A stretch of DNA of 46,965 nucleotides from the NCBI GenBank assembly GCA_025363655.1, contig JANYDK010000050.1, positions 1 to 46,965 on the forward strand, read 5' to 3'. How positions within the stretch are numbered: position 1 is the first letter of the stretch; each line of letters opens with the position of its first letter. Made by a program: the position numbers and the translations under genes. The notes beneath the pieces were generated by a model, which saw only the letters and a list, made by a program, of their open reading frames with translations, made no database searches and had not been told where the DNA came from. The DNA comes from Deltaproteobacteria bacterium (lineage in GTDB: Bacteria > Myxococcota_A > Polyangia > Polyangiales > JADJMO01). This document shows, one piece after another, positions 1,436 to 21,642 of this stretch.

Positions 1436-3130
1436 ATGCGCTCGCCCTTTGCCAGTGGTGTCTCGCTCGTCTCGGTCTCGTCACTGGCCTCATTGGCCTC
1501 ACTGATGTCGCTCGTGATCGTCGGCTGTGGTGCGCCGGCTCCGACTCCCGAGGGTGGCGGCGGCGATCTCGGCTTCGGCGACTCGAGCACCAGCGCGAGC
1601 CCAAATGCCAAGCTCTGGGCGCCCTCCGGCGATGGCGAGCTCGACGTCCGCGTCGTCCATGCACAGGACGAAGATCATCGCGCTCTCATGAAGACGACCG
1701 GCGGCAAGCGGCTCGTCTATCTCAACGCGCACGGCGGCAAGTTCACGCCCGGCTGGGACGACTCCTCGAAGGGAAAATCGAGCATCATCGACGGCCCCGT
1801 GAGCATCCCCGCGTATCGCAAGGGCGCAGCTCGTTTCGCCACCCTCCAGACGTGCGTAGCCAAGGAATACGCGCGCTGGAACATCACCGTCACCGATCAA
1901 GATCCGGGCTCGATGCCGCACGTCGAAGCCGTGATCGGCGGTCAGCCTTCGGCGGTCGGGCTCCCTTCGTCGGTGGGCGGCGTCGCGCCGATGAGCGACG
2001 ACGGCTCGGTCATCGAGAAGGCCGTCGTCTACGTCTTCAGCCAGAACCTCTACGACGACACCGTCGAGTGCGAGGTCGTGGCGCACGAGGTCGGTCACGC
2101 CTTGGGCCTCGAGCACGAATATCTCTGCCAAGATCCGATGACGTACCTCGAAGGGTGCGGTCACAAGGTCTTTCAGGATCGCTCGGCGCCCTGCGGCACC
2201 GACGATCCGGTCGCCTGTCGCAACGGCGGCAAACAGAACACCGTGCAACACCTGACGAAGGTGCTCGGCGTTGCGGGCGCCTTGCCCAATGGCGACGGAG
2301 ACGATGGCGGCAACGACGATTCGCCGGCGCCGAAGCCGAAGCCCAAGCCGCCGGCGGTCGACGACTCGGACGATTCGGGCGACACGACGGGTGGCGACGA
2401 GGATGGCAGCACGCTCGCGGCGCCCGCGGTGTCGATCGTCTCGCCGGCAGATGAGGCTTCTTTTCCGGCACACTCTACGCTCAGCGTGGTCGCCGACGCG
2501 CACGCGGCGAAGGGGACGAAGCTGACGGAGGTCGCGCTCCGATGGACGCAGGATGGGACGATGCTCACCGTCCCCTGCGACCAGCCGATCAGCGGCATCT
2601 CGTGCGCGAAGAAGGCCGACAAGTACACGTTCACGATCCAAGCCGGCGTCGGCGAGCGCACCTTCGCGGTGCAGGCGACCGACGCGGCTGGCCACACCTC
2701 GCGCACCGCTGAGCGCACGCTCTCACTCGTCGCCGCACCTCCCCCGCCTCTGCCCCCTCCGGTCATCGGGAACGGATCGGGTGACGATGGCGACACGGGC
2801 GACACCGACGATTCTGGTGGCTCGGTCTCGACGGGCGCGATGGCGCTCACCTTCGATGCGCCGAGCGATCGCGCCAAGGTCCACGCCGGCAGCAAGCTCG
2901 CCGTGCGGATGCACTCGCAGCACGAATGGGCGACGGTCTGGGTGGTCTGGACGGGTCCCCTCGGTGAGCAACGATTCCCGATGCGACCGGACAAGAAGGG
3001 CGACGGCTGGAGCTTGCAGATGCCGATCCTCGCCAAGGCCACGCCAGGCAAGCGCACGCTGACGCTCTACGCCGCCGACGTCGACGGCAAGATCGTCGCG
3101 GGGCCGACCCGCACGGTGCTCGTTCGCTGA
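1436..3130 (+). CDS. Secreted zinc metalloprotease lipoprotein (metzincin-like) with Ig-like C-terminal modules
   Basis: The protein (564 aa) begins with a lipoprotein signal peptide ending in the lipobox IVGC (Cys31), so it is probably anchored in the envelope. The ATG at 1436 has a GAGAGG ribosome site just upstream and fits the signal peptide better than an in-frame start at 1409. A zinc protease motif HEVGHALGLEH lies at residues 217-227, followed by a plausible Met-turn (DPMTYL), as in matrixin-type metzincins. After it comes an acidic and Pro/Lys-rich linker, then two beta-rich segments that look like Ig-type modules (about 325-425 and 460-564), separated by a second acidic linker. The catalytic motif is seen; substrate and exact peptidase family are not known. 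It stands alone between RNase J and the next regulator. Confidence 0.8.
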   Translation: MRSPFASGVSLVSVSSLASLASLMSLVIVGCGAPAPTPEGGGGDLGFGDSSTSASPNAKLWAPSGDGELDVRVVHAQDEDHRALMKTTGGKRLVYLNAHGGKFTPGWDDSSKGKSSIIDGPVSIPAYRKGAARFATLQTCVAKEYARWNITVTDQDPGSMPHVEAVIGGQPSAVGLPSSVGGVAPMSDDGSVIEKAVVYVFSQNLYDDTVECEVVAHEVGHALGLEHEYLCQDPMTYLEGCGHKVFQDRSAPCGTDDPVACRNGGKQNTVQHLTKVLGVAGALPNGDGDDGGNDDSPAPKPKPKPPAVDDSDDSGDTTGGDEDGSTLAAPAVSIVSPADEASFPAHSTLSVVADAHAAKGTKLTEVALRWTQDGTMLTVPCDQPISGISCAKKADKYTFTIQAGVGERTFAVQATDAAGHTSRTAERTLSLVAAPPPPLPPPVIGNGSGDDGDTGDTDDSGGSVSTGAMALTFDAPSDRAKVHAGSKLAVRMHSQHEWATVWVVWTGPLGEQRFPMRPDKKGDGWSLQMPILAKATPGKRTLTLYAADVDGKIVAGPTRTVLVR

Positions 3131-10526: not shown

Positions 10527-11114
10527 TCAGCGATAGCCGACGCGAAGGAGAATCTTCGCCATCTCTCGATACGCCTCGGCCTCTTGCGGGACGTGCCAGC
10601 CAAGCGCGTCGGCGAGCCGATCGTAGATGTTGAAGGCCCCGGCGACGTAGATGGCGTCGATCAGCTCGCGCTCGGAGGTGCCCGCGTCACGAACGGCGCG
10701 GGCGTCGGCGTCGGTCAGCGCCTCCGGCTCGAGGGTCATCTTCTCGAGGAAGACGAGCGTCGCCCGGAGCTTGGGGGCGAGATCGGAGACCGCGCGAAAA
10801 TCACGGAGAATCGCCTCCGTTCGTTCCTCTCCGAGCACCGCCGACGCGACCGCGCCGTGGGCCTTGCCTCAGAAGAGACACTGGTTGAGGCGCGAGACGA
10901 AGGCGGCGAAGAGCTCGCGCTCACCGATGCCCCACGGTGAAGGGCCGCGGAGGAGACGCTGGGTCACGACGGAGAGCGCGCTGCCGACGAGCTCGGGCCG
11001 GTGCAGCAACGTCTTCACGACGTCGGGCGGCTCGCGGCCCATCAGCCGTCGCATCATCGTCAGCTTCAATCGCTGTGGCCAATGGCGCGGGGTGGCGACG
11101 GTCGAAAGGCGCAT
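10527..11114 (-). CDS. AhpD-like (peroxidase-related/CMD family) selenoprotein with in-frame TGA
   Basis: A single minus-strand frame runs from ATG 11114 to the stop at 10527, broken only by TGA at 10869-10871; reading it as selenocysteine gives 195 aa, near the usual length of peroxidase-related AhpD-fold proteins. The residues around it read NQCLF-U-GKAHGAVA, so Sec82 takes the place of the second Cys in the C-x2-C-x3-H redox motif (Cys79, Sec82, His86). In characterised AhpD that position is the attacking thiol. Family-like sequence lies on both sides: GERELFAAFVSRLN before, and DARAVRDAGTSERELIDAI with AFNIYDRLADAL after. A hairpin with a GGUC loop follows the TGA. The ATG overlaps the upstream gene's stop (TGATG), implying coupled translation. 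A Cys-to-stop mutation is the alternative; the hairpin and the selB gene in the window argue against it. Function as a thiol peroxidase or reductase is inferred. Confidence 0.85.
10837..10862 (-). promoter_or_regulatory. Candidate bacterial SECIS hairpin after the in-frame TGA
   Basis: Counting from the base after the TGA on the minus strand, bases 12-17 (CGGCGC) pair with 22-27 (GCGUCG), giving six pairs with one G-U, around a GGUC loop at 18-21. Lower, after a two-base internal mismatch, bases 7-9 can pair with 30-32. Known bacterial SECIS elements place an apical loop with G in its first two positions about 16-37 nt after the UGA. The E. coli fdhF element also has a GGUC loop, only one nucleotide further from its UGA. 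The match is by eye; no folding energy was computed. Confidence 0.72.
10869..10871 (-). other. Recoded TGA (putative selenocysteine codon 82)
   Basis: This TGA is the only stop in an otherwise open 195-codon frame and replaces the second cysteine codon of an AhpD CxxC motif. The next three codons lead to the conserved histidine of the motif. A one-base change from TGC or TGT would also give TGA, so the SECIS-like hairpin downstream is the main reason to prefer recoding. Confidence 0.82.
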
Positions 11115-11419
11115 CAGCGTTTTTCCTCGCTCCCTCGCACCGCTGCGAGTGCAGCAAGAACGCGGAGATCTGCAGCAGCGAAGGCAGCGCAGGTCGTCGC
11201 CTCGAAGACCGCGTCTTCGCCGTGCGCGCGAACCTGCTCGGCGACCTCCTCGTCGGTCACCCGATAGGCGTGGCGCATGACTTTTTGCAGGTACCCGCGC
11301 ATGGACGTGGGAAGAATCGCGACGAGGATGCGACGACGGACGTCGCTGTCGAGGACCCCTCGGGCGCTGACCAGCGTACGTGCGAGCGCCGACCAAACGG
11401 CCGCGTGCGGATCGTTCAC
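11114..11419 (-). CDS. Small AhpD/CMD-like companion protein lacking the CxxC motif
   Basis: The 101-aa product is helical, cytoplasmic in appearance, and has no signal peptide. The stretch YRVTDEEVAEQVRAHGEDAV followed by FEATTCAAFAAADLRVLAALA resembles the DAD/EI-x2-LRAAG-x-SDD-x2-FE pattern near the end of carboxymuconolactone-decarboxylase/AhpD proteins, but there is no CxxC pair. The gene is tied to both neighbours by overlap. Its GTG start (11419) shares GTGA with the stop of the transporter gene, and its TGA shares TGATG with the start of the selenoprotein gene. This suggests the two AhpD-like proteins are made together and may act as a pair. The family link is by pattern only; a plain hypothetical protein is the fallback call. 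Confidence 0.72.
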   Translation of the reverse strand: MNDPHAAVWSALARTLVSARGVLDSDVRRRILVAILPTSMRGYLQKVMRHAYRVTDEEVAEQVRAHGEDAVFEATTCAAFAAADLRVLAALAAVRGSEEKR

Positions 11420-12447
11420 TTGCCCGAGTCTACCTCAACCTTCCGCTCGTCATCCGGTGTCACCCGAGTCGACCGAGTCGCAACCACGCCGAGCCCGACG
11501 AGAATGGCGACTCCGGCGAGGACGACGCGAGTGGTCAGCGCTTCGTGCAAGAGGAAGTACGCCGACGTCGTCACGAGCAGAGGCTGCAGATAAATGTACG
11601 CAGCGACGAGGCCCGAAGACGCGCGTGCGAGCGCGTAGGCGTTGGCGAGGTAGGCGAAGACGGTCGGCACCGCGAGGCACCAGAGGACGAGCCAAGTCGC
11701 CGTCGTCGACCAGGTCGGAATGTCGCGCAACGCGGCAAGAAGCCCGAACGGCGCGAGGAGCAGCGCGCCCCAGGTGAAGACCCAGGCGACCGTGCGCAAC
11801 GTGCCGTGCTTGCGCAAGAGCGGCCGCACGCCGACGAGGTAGGCGGCGTAGCTGAGCGAGTTGATGGTGACGAGGAGGTTGCCGATCGAGAGATCGCGGA
11901 CGCCGGTGAGCGTGACGACGCCGACGCTGGCGAGCGCGAGCCCGAGGACCGTGCGTACGCGTAGCTTCTCGACGCCGAACGCGGCCGCGATCGCCGCCGT
12001 GAAGACGGGAATCGCCGCCGCCAAGAGCGCAGTCGAGGTCGCGGTCGAGCGCTTGAGCCCGTGGAGGAAGAAGGCCTGGTTGATGACCACCCCGAGGATC
12101 GCGAAGAGCGCAAAACGCAGGTGATCCTGGGTTCCGAGGGCGGTGGTCGACGCACGATCGCGATCGCCCTCGCGCTCTCCCTTTCCCTTGCGTTTGCTCC
12201 TGCCGGCGACATGCGTGACGTAGAGGGCCGCAGCGTGGAAGGCGACGGCGCCGCCGGCGGCACGGAGGAAGGCGAGCGCCGAAGGATCGACATGCTGCTC
12301 GCTGACCGCACGCTTGCCGACGATCGCGTTGGAGGCGAAGGCGAGCTGGACGAGGAAGAGGGCGAGATGAACGGCCGGCGTCGCGGATGCTGCAGGCACG
12401 GCGCGCTCGGCCCCTCGTTCTTCTGGGTCGGGCTCGGGGCCGGGCAC
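11416..12447 (-). CDS. EamA/DMT-superfamily transporter
   Basis: This 343-aa inner-membrane protein has about ten hydrophobic segments in two five-helix halves, as in the EamA family of drug/metabolite transporters. The first half starts with HLALFLVQLAFASNAIVGKR. The second half includes GNLLVTINSLSYAAYLVGVR and LVAAYIYLQPLLVTTSAYFL, which is typical of the paired EamA domains. A charged loop rich in Arg, Lys, Asp and Glu (about 82-105) separates the second and third helices. Substrate is not predictable; the family exports amino acids, purines or other metabolites. Start is GTG 12447, without a clear ribosome site, so a downstream start is possible. It is the first gene of the operon that ends with the AhpD-like selenoprotein, and is divergent from rseP. 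Confidence 0.83.
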   Translation of the reverse strand: MPGPEPDPEERGAERAVPAASATPAVHLALFLVQLAFASNAIVGKRAVSEQHVDPSALAFLRAAGGAVAFHAAALYVTHVAGRSKRKGKGEREGDRDRASTTALGTQDHLRFALFAILGVVINQAFFLHGLKRSTATSTALLAAAIPVFTAAIAAAFGVEKLRVRTVLGLALASVGVVTLTGVRDLSIGNLLVTINSLSYAAYLVGVRPLLRKHGTLRTVAWVFTWGALLLAPFGLLAALRDIPTWSTTATWLVLWCLAVPTVFAYLANAYALARASSGLVAAYIYLQPLLVTTSAYFLLHEALTTRVVLAGVAILVGLGVVATRSTRVTPDDERKVEVDSGK

Positions 12448-19686: not shown

Positions 19687-21642
19687 CTAAATCTTTCGCA
19701 GCTTGCGCACGTCGCCAACCCGCAGCGTCACCTTCTTCGCGTCGAACCACTCGGCGAGCGGCATGACGTACTTGCGCGACGCCCCCACCAGGTCCTTCAG
19801 CTCACCGGTGGTCATTTGCCCTGTTTTCTCGATGAACGCGACGACGCGCGCTTGCAGATCGTCGATGACGGTCTTGGCGAGCCAGAAGTCGCCTTGGATG
19901 TGGACGAGTGAGCCCGCGCTCGCGAGCGCCGTCGCGAAGGCACGCGCACGCTCCGCCGAGAGCCCCAGCTCATCGGCGATTTCCTGGAGAAATGGCGGCG
20001 CTGTGCCGGCAGCGCGGAGGCGCTCGACGATTTTCTCGGCGACCGGATCGTCGATGCGTGCGCGCGGGGTGAACGAGGCGAGCCGCACCCGCTCGCCGCT
20101 GCGGACCATCTTTCCAGCGGCCACCGCAGCGTCGAGGCAAGCGTCGGCGAGCCCGGAAACCGCGTTCGCCGGAACGACGGAGAGTGCGGTGGCGAGCGGC
20201 GCGCCTTCTTCGTCGGGATGGGCCTCGTGGTATCTACCGAGCGCTGCGGCGATGGCGGCGGTGACCTTGGCGCGTGGTGTTTCGCCGACGTAGCGTGGGT
20301 CCTGCGAGCCGCGCTGTTCGAGCGGCAAGAGCCCGCGCGAGAGATCTTTGCTCATCGAGCGACGTCGCAGCCGAGGGGCGAGAAACGACGCCGAGATTCC
20401 AGCGACACCAGAGGCGTCGATCTCGAAGCGTGCACGCGAGGTGCTGTCGGCATCGAGCAGACGTCGGAGCTCGTTGCCGTAGGCGAGCCGGCCGCCGAGG
20501 AGTCGTCCTGGCGCGACCCGAAGCACCTCGAGCGCACCGAGCGTGGCGCCGACGCTGGCCAGACGGGGATCGCCTCGTGCGACCAGTCGATCGCCGACCG
20601 CGACCGCGAGGGGTGTCGCGAGGACCACGCGGACCAGCCGTCGTTCGCCGCCGCCGATCGTCGTCGCGCTATTTTTCGCGCCTTCGGCGCTGTCGGCGCG
20701 CTCGTCGGTGTCGGTGAGCGGCACGAGGCGGGCATTCGATTCGTCGGTGCCGGCGTGGATGGCGATGCGCGCGCGTCGACCGAACGCACGACCTCCGCTC
20801 GGACGCTCGAGGACGGCGTCGAAGGCGCGCGCCGCGAGGAGCGACCCAGGCGCAGAGAGCACGTCGCCGCGTCGGAGCTGCGAGAGCTCGACCCCGGCGA
20901 GCGCGAGCGCGACCCGACCGGTGGCCTGCGCGCGATCGACCGACTTGCCGTGGACGTGAATGCCGCGCACTCGCAAGCGATCTCCGGTGGGCCAGCGCTC
21001 GATGTCATCCCCGACGACCACGGTCCCGTCGACGATGGTCCCGGTGACGACCACGCCTTGCCCTCGCGGCGCGAAGGCGCGATCGACGGACAGGCGAAAT
21101 GGCCTATTTTTGCGCTCACCGACGTCGACTCCGAGCGCCGCTTCGGCGAGCGCAGTGCGCAGCTCGTCGATGCCCTCGCCCGTCTTCCCGCTGACCTCGA
21201 ACATTCGCGCGGTGCGAAAGCGCGTCTCGGCGATCGCTTGCTCGACGTCCATCCGCGCCAACTCTCGCGTCTCGGCGTCGGCGACGTCGCACCGCGTGAG
21301 GGCGACGACGAGCGAAGCGACGCCGAGCCCGGCGAGGATCACCAAGTGCTCGCGCGTCTGCGGCATCACGCCGGCGTCGGCCGCCACCACCAAGAGGGCG
21401 ACGTCGATACCCTGCGCTCCCGCCACCATCGTCCCGACGAACGACTCGTGACCTGGCACGTCGACGATCGAGAGCACGTGATCGTTGCCCCGGAAGCGCA
21501 CCGGCATCGGCGCGAAGCCGAGCTCGATGGTGATGCCGCGCCGCTTCTCCTCCGGCAGCCGATCGGTCTGCACGCCGGTGAGCGCATGCACCAGCGTCGT
21601 CTTCCCGTGATCGACGTGTCCCGCGGTCCCGATGACGGCCAT
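19687..21642 (-). CDS. selB: Selenocysteine-specific elongation factor SelB
   Basis: SelB is the GTPase that delivers selenocysteyl-tRNA to UGA codons next to a SECIS hairpin. The 651-aa product starts with GTAGHVDHGKTTLVHALTG (G1, residues 5-23), then TDRLPEEKRRGITIELGFA (switch I/G2), DVPGHESFV (G3) and a TRCD version of the NKxD guanine motif. Three beta-barrel domains follow, and about 480-651 form the tandem winged helices that bind SECIS RNA, ending with the recognisable KDLVGASRKYVMPLAEWFD of the last winged helix. Length and domain order match a complete SelB. The gene follows a lytic transglycosylase gene by 18 bases on the same strand. selA, selC and selD are not in the window. Its presence supports real UGA decoding in the AhpD-like gene at 10527-11114. 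Confidence 0.95.
   Translation of the reverse strand: MAVIGTAGHVDHGKTTLVHALTGVQTDRLPEEKRRGITIELGFAPMPVRFRGNDHVLSIVDVPGHESFVGTMVAGAQGIDVALLVVAADAGVMPQTREHLVILAGLGVASLVVALTRCDVADAETRELARMDVEQAIAETRFRTARMFEVSGKTGEGIDELRTALAEAALGVDVGERKNRPFRLSVDRAFAPRGQGVVVTGTIVDGTVVVGDDIERWPTGDRLRVRGIHVHGKSVDRAQATGRVALALAGVELSQLRRGDVLSAPGSLLAARAFDAVLERPSGGRAFGRRARIAIHAGTDESNARLVPLTDTDERADSAEGAKNSATTIGGGERRLVRVVLATPLAVAVGDRLVARGDPRLASVGATLGALEVLRVAPGRLLGGRLAYGNELRRLLDADSTSRARFEIDASGVAGISASFLAPRLRRRSMSKDLSRGLLPLEQRGSQDPRYVGETPRAKVTAAIAAALGRYHEAHPDEEGAPLATALSVVPANAVSGLADACLDAAVAAGKMVRSGERVRLASFTPRARIDDPVAEKIVERLRAAGTAPPFLQEIADELGLSAERARAFATALASAGSLVHIQGDFWLAKTVIDDLQARVVAFIEKTGQMTTGELKDLVGASRKYVMPLAEWFDAKKVTLRVGDVRKLRKI

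Follow-up and report, generated by a model that had tools for sequence, protein, structure and literature searches.

A gene on the minus strand of the 46,965-nt stretch of myxococcotal DNA analysed here (the window; contig JANYDK010000050.1) is predicted to encode a selenocysteine (Sec)-containing AhpD-like thiol/selenol oxidoreductase with a motif-less partner, an explanation to which, taken as a whole, we assign a probability of about 0.88 on the basis of sequence comparisons. The AhpD-like CxxU type of selenoprotein has been on record since 2005; it was found in the Sargasso Sea (PMC1088965) and again in the GOS data (PMC2398784), so the gene is an additional member of a known family. The less ordinary part of the locus is the companion gene that is coupled to it.

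The gene (10527-11114) spans 195 codons; codon 82 (10869-10871) is its sole internal TGA, and a further TGA terminates it. The internal UGA specifies the second residue of a CxxU motif whose first residue is Cys79 (10878-10880), and the surrounding residues are C79-L-F-U82-G-K-A-H86. The original prediction, a 195-codon minus-strand frame with TGA at codon 82 in a C-x2-[TGA]-x3-H arrangement, is exactly what translation gives. Gene finders that stop at UGA would miss or truncate such a gene. Frames of this appearance are plentiful by chance in the window, which has a GC content of 68%: 133 of them are interrupted by one TGA and stay open for 60 codons or more to either side of it, so that a TGA-interrupted frame alone is no evidence. 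This frame stands above the background because the protein is conserved to either side of the TGA, related genomes share the TGA codon, and synonymous sites in the hairpin that follows are invariant.

We searched 284 genomes of the phylum and found 11 full-length orthologues besides the window gene. The TGA occupies the codon-82 position in 11 of these 12 closest Myxococcota orthologues found, window gene counted, and a relative in which the enzyme is fused to a companion domain (L034) uses the same TGA codon; Cys takes the Sec position in one orthologue (L026) and in a Microbacterium homologue (L009). Both kinds of homologue proposed for comparison, Cys- and TGA-containing, were thereby available, and they align at the Sec position with conserved flanks. 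Identity of the window protein to the remaining 11 Myxococcota orthologues is 39-54% and extends to either side of the TGA; in the clade alignment C79, C/U82 and H86 do not vary and E67 is almost invariant. In the tree, the 13 Myxococcota loci and Microbacterium form one clade with support of 100/98, comprising 12 Sec and 2 Cys members, and this clade is made up of the companion-bearing loci. Relatives with the same TGA are under purifying selection downstream of it, in line with the earlier view that decay is less likely. Plasmid records contained only relatives below 60% identity. A second Myxococcota clade of AhpD-like TGA genes (L037-L045), mostly with a CFY-U motif, has its own hairpin after the UGA.

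Directly after the TGA, the sequence is CACGGCGCGGTCGCGTCG in almost every clade member. It contains a predicted bacterial SECIS hairpin (10842-10857, minus strand) with a 6-bp stem, CGGCGC/GCGUCG, and an apical GGUC loop (10848-10851), encoded by codons +4 to +9. The published bSECIS model calls for a loop of 3-9 nt, a stem of 4-16 bp, a G within the first two loop positions, a UGA-to-loop spacing of 16-37 nt and a minimum free energy of -7.5 kcal/mol or lower (PMC13188914); the hairpin, with its GGUC loop, 6 bp, 17-nt spacing and about -9.7 kcal/mol, lies within all of these limits. At sites where the amino acid is invariant among ten genomes, a single codon is used at 6 of 6 positions in the hairpin versus 0 of 13 elsewhere, and pairs with the same residue share the identical codon at a fraction of 0.88 over codons +3 to +13 versus 0.52 elsewhere. 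The stem also covaries: 98.7% of cells are paired, compensatory replacements turn G-U into C-G and G-C into A-U, and in the divergent members L023, L034 and L041 both sides of stem pairs are altered with the stem retained. L026, the orthologue with Cys, lacks the hairpin. When the region 3' of the UGA was folded as a single sequence, the result was neither exceptional nor significant; random synonymous recoding of single hairpins gave marginal results for most members, and an Rfam search of the window returned no matches. We take the hairpin to be a SECIS on the strength of the comparative tests. No paper on selenoproteins of Myxococcota or myxobacteria was found in the literature searched, and the locus gives this phylum a Sec gene with good support as well as a clear example of an in-frame SECIS that is frozen.

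The assignment of the protein as an AhpD/CMD-fold, peroxidase-related protein, with Sec replacing the second cysteine of CxxC, is supported by profile and motif comparisons. The CMD profile PF02627 is matched at 25.9 (gathering cut-off 23), and the 'peroxidase-related' profile TIGR01926, which is matched by all 14 clade members, scores 79.3 bits with the window protein (E 3e-22), slightly short of the curated cut-off of 81.8. Its best relatives of known structure are AhpD-like (3c1l and 6k40, for example) and have the second cysteine of CxxC where the window protein has Sec82. AlphaFold gave no usable structure, the mean pLDDT being 51 for the selenoprotein and 59 for the companion. The AhpD signature E-x11-C-x2-C/U-x3-H is present in full as E67, C79, U82 and H86, and the same spacing occurs in Mycobacterium tuberculosis AhpD, where the residues are Glu118, Cys130, Cys133 and His137, Cys133 being the peroxidatic and Cys130 the resolving cysteine. 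Unlike the mycobacterial protein, the window protein has Sec at the place of Cys133 and Phe at that of His132, belongs to a different subfamily and has a motif-less partner. By this motif spacing, Sec82 would act in the role of Cys133 and Cys79 in that of Cys130, with His86 and Glu67 as a proton relay, and the putative role of the enzyme would be peroxide reduction or a redox relay.

Immediately upstream lies the companion gene (11114-11419, minus strand), which has a GTG start, encodes 101 aa and contains no redox motif. Its stop and the ATG of the selenoprotein gene overlap by 1 nt in the sequence TGATG, as the original prediction of coupling to the upstream gene had it. An EamA-family transporter gene (11416-12447, minus strand) lies directly upstream in turn, overlaps the companion start by 4 nt and is probably co-transcribed here; its position next to the companion is not conserved at other loci. 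Locus comparison identified the companion as the sole conserved neighbour of the selenoprotein gene: a homologous gene of about 100 aa is directly upstream of the enzyme in 12 of 12 Myxococcota loci and in Microbacterium, and in L034 the selenoprotein carries the companion domain as a C-terminal fusion. A companion profile gave strong matches (E < 1e-27) among the 284 genomes only in the 13 genomes of the selenoprotein clade, a pattern that is partly circular because the profile was built from those same 13 Myxococcota loci and Microbacterium.

Using hhalign, we found that the companion aligns to residues 121-159 of the selenoprotein (E 5e-6), and companion members match TIGR01926 only at positions 115-173, past the redox motif. 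The homology was detected for the window's companion through its family and not by single-sequence HMM scans. Given its homology to the enzyme's C-terminal half and its lack of a redox motif, the companion looks like a motif-less half of the AhpD fold, related to the helical C-terminal half of the very enzyme it accompanies. We found no description of it in the open-access literature. Strict linkage, fusion and homology together suggest that the companion could form a hetero-oligomer with the selenoprotein and help to fold, stabilise or gate the active site, a proposal we hold with as much doubt as belief. The stricter form of the idea, a two-subunit AhpD selenoenzyme in which the overlapping upstream gene supplies a motif-less half-AhpD pseudoenzyme as obligate hetero-oligomeric partner of the selenoprotein, we likewise put at even odds. 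If true, the two-subunit arrangement would have been kept across Myxococcota and one actinobacterium and fused in at least one lineage, and a motif-less half-enzyme partner would offer a testable idea on the assembly or control of Sec-containing AhpD-fold enzymes.

The companion might instead be a translationally coupled neighbour of an ordinary AhpD-like selenoprotein, with no partnership between the two products. In keeping with this, no companion was seen among the related AhpD-like selenoproteins L037-L045 that were compared. Against it stand the strict adjacency across the phylum and in an actinobacterium, the L034 fusion and the homology to the enzyme's own half. One companion also matches the profile NF041238 weakly at positions 36-112 (E 0.0025), and the C-terminal part of that profile matches the enzyme, which hints at a second fused arrangement. 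We consider the coupled neighbour rather unlikely; it concerns the companion part only, and its likelihood is not exclusive of the main explanation. In a separate locus (L056; G097, contig C4, 4003-5541), two AhpD-like TGA genes, with CFY-TGA and CEF-TGA motifs, flank a companion gene on the same strand.

Comparison with other AhpD-like families places the selenoenzyme and its companion more closely. Known AhpD-like CxxU selenoproteins (COG2128/TIGR01926) share with the window protein the fold family, Sec as the second residue of CxxC and a SECIS right after the UGA, and their Cys homologues are widespread (PMC1088965, PMC2398784, PMC13188914); TIGR01926 also figures in the list of a 2026 review (PMC13188914). 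Unlike them, the present clade mostly has CxFU, with Phe before Sec; its GGUC-loop SECIS is frozen throughout Myxococcota, and a motif-less companion is paired with the enzyme. NF041238 (AhpD_rel_CFYUT, the Sargasso 'hypothetical protein 1') is, as here, an AhpD-related (seleno)protein with CxxU, and its C-terminal part (224-342) matches the enzyme with an E of 4e-13; the window protein scores 49.3 against it, below the cut-off of 175, and NF041238 is one 357-position profile whereas the companion here is a separate gene. Clade members also match the AhpD-like profiles TIGR04030 (perox_Avi_7169) and TIGR04029 (CMD_Avi_7170), with scores far under the cut-off (42.8 vs 233). These two profiles describe a pair made up of a peroxidase-like and a CMD-domain protein, so a two-partner arrangement has precedent.

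The genome encodes much of the machinery for Sec decoding. The window itself contains selB (19687-21642, minus strand), encoding a Sec-specific elongation factor of 651 aa with SelB winged-helix domains; a tRNA-Sec with a UCA anticodon is on contig C66, and selD, on contig C90, has its own in-frame TGA within GAG-U-ACK (GAGUACK), which we take to be the usual Sec site of SelD. The conserved sequence and the machinery suggest that Sec would be inserted by SelB and Sec-tRNA-Sec, bound to the hairpin that directly follows UGA82. The earlier proposal that Sec replaces the second Cys of the AhpD CxxC is supported by the aligned TGA and Cys homologues, the covarying SECIS and the presence of tRNA-Sec, SelB and SelD. 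It had also named absence of selA, selC and selD from the genome as counting against Sec; selC and selD are present, and selA was not found in the assembly with TIGR00474, Pfam SelA or a sister-genus SelA protein as queries. With 96% completeness and 150 contigs, the assembly does not prove that the organism itself lacks selA. Fourteen of 18 relatives tested have selA, including 4 of 4 other members of the same family, and in three of those four it lies at or near a contig end, indicating that the gene is readily lost from assemblies.

We used the genome G285, in which selA comes after an MFS gene, as a synteny reference. The corresponding site is contiguous in the window genome and contains no selA remnant; it holds a small lipoprotein-like gene and hsdR-hsdS-hsdM of a type I restriction-modification system, and a break of the assembly at this site is accordingly not supported. 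The hsdM, hsdS and hsdR genes lie on contig C33 (L092, 3907-9952), at the position that selA has in G285. These observations and the failed searches are what would be expected had selA been lost in the lineage, with the restriction-modification cassette at its site, UGA82 functioning as a genuine stop and the SECIS, selB, selC and selD surviving as relics. We judge this improbable: SECIS, Sec codon, downstream frame, selB, selC and the Sec codon of selD are all intact, the assembly is 96% complete and divided into 150 contigs, the other four family members have selA, mostly at or near contig ends, and the gene could also have moved. We conclude that selA was relocated, is in sequence missing from the assembly or was lost very recently; since SECIS, Sec codon and selD are intact, recent loss is the less likely choice.

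The weakest alternative, a pseudogene or sequencing error in which a TGC or TGT Cys codon was mutated to or misread as TGA, could draw on the existence of Cys homologues and the abundance of chance TGA-interrupted frames in the window, but we reject it as having a negligible chance, since the same TGA occurs in 11 further genomes (10 orthologues and L034) from several families of the phylum and the synonymous sites of the SECIS are frozen.

Three further features of the genome were observed. A Cys-type AhpD-like paralogue (contig C25, 86872-87279; L100) has no internal stop and is about 31% identical to the selenoprotein. The selD gene has a stem-loop just after its in-frame TGA (L013, 1531-1575). 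The 3' end of the tRNA-Sec gene (L001, 1501-1600) overlaps the end of an integrase-like open reading frame on the opposite strand (1558-3012), as if tRNA-Sec were an integration site.
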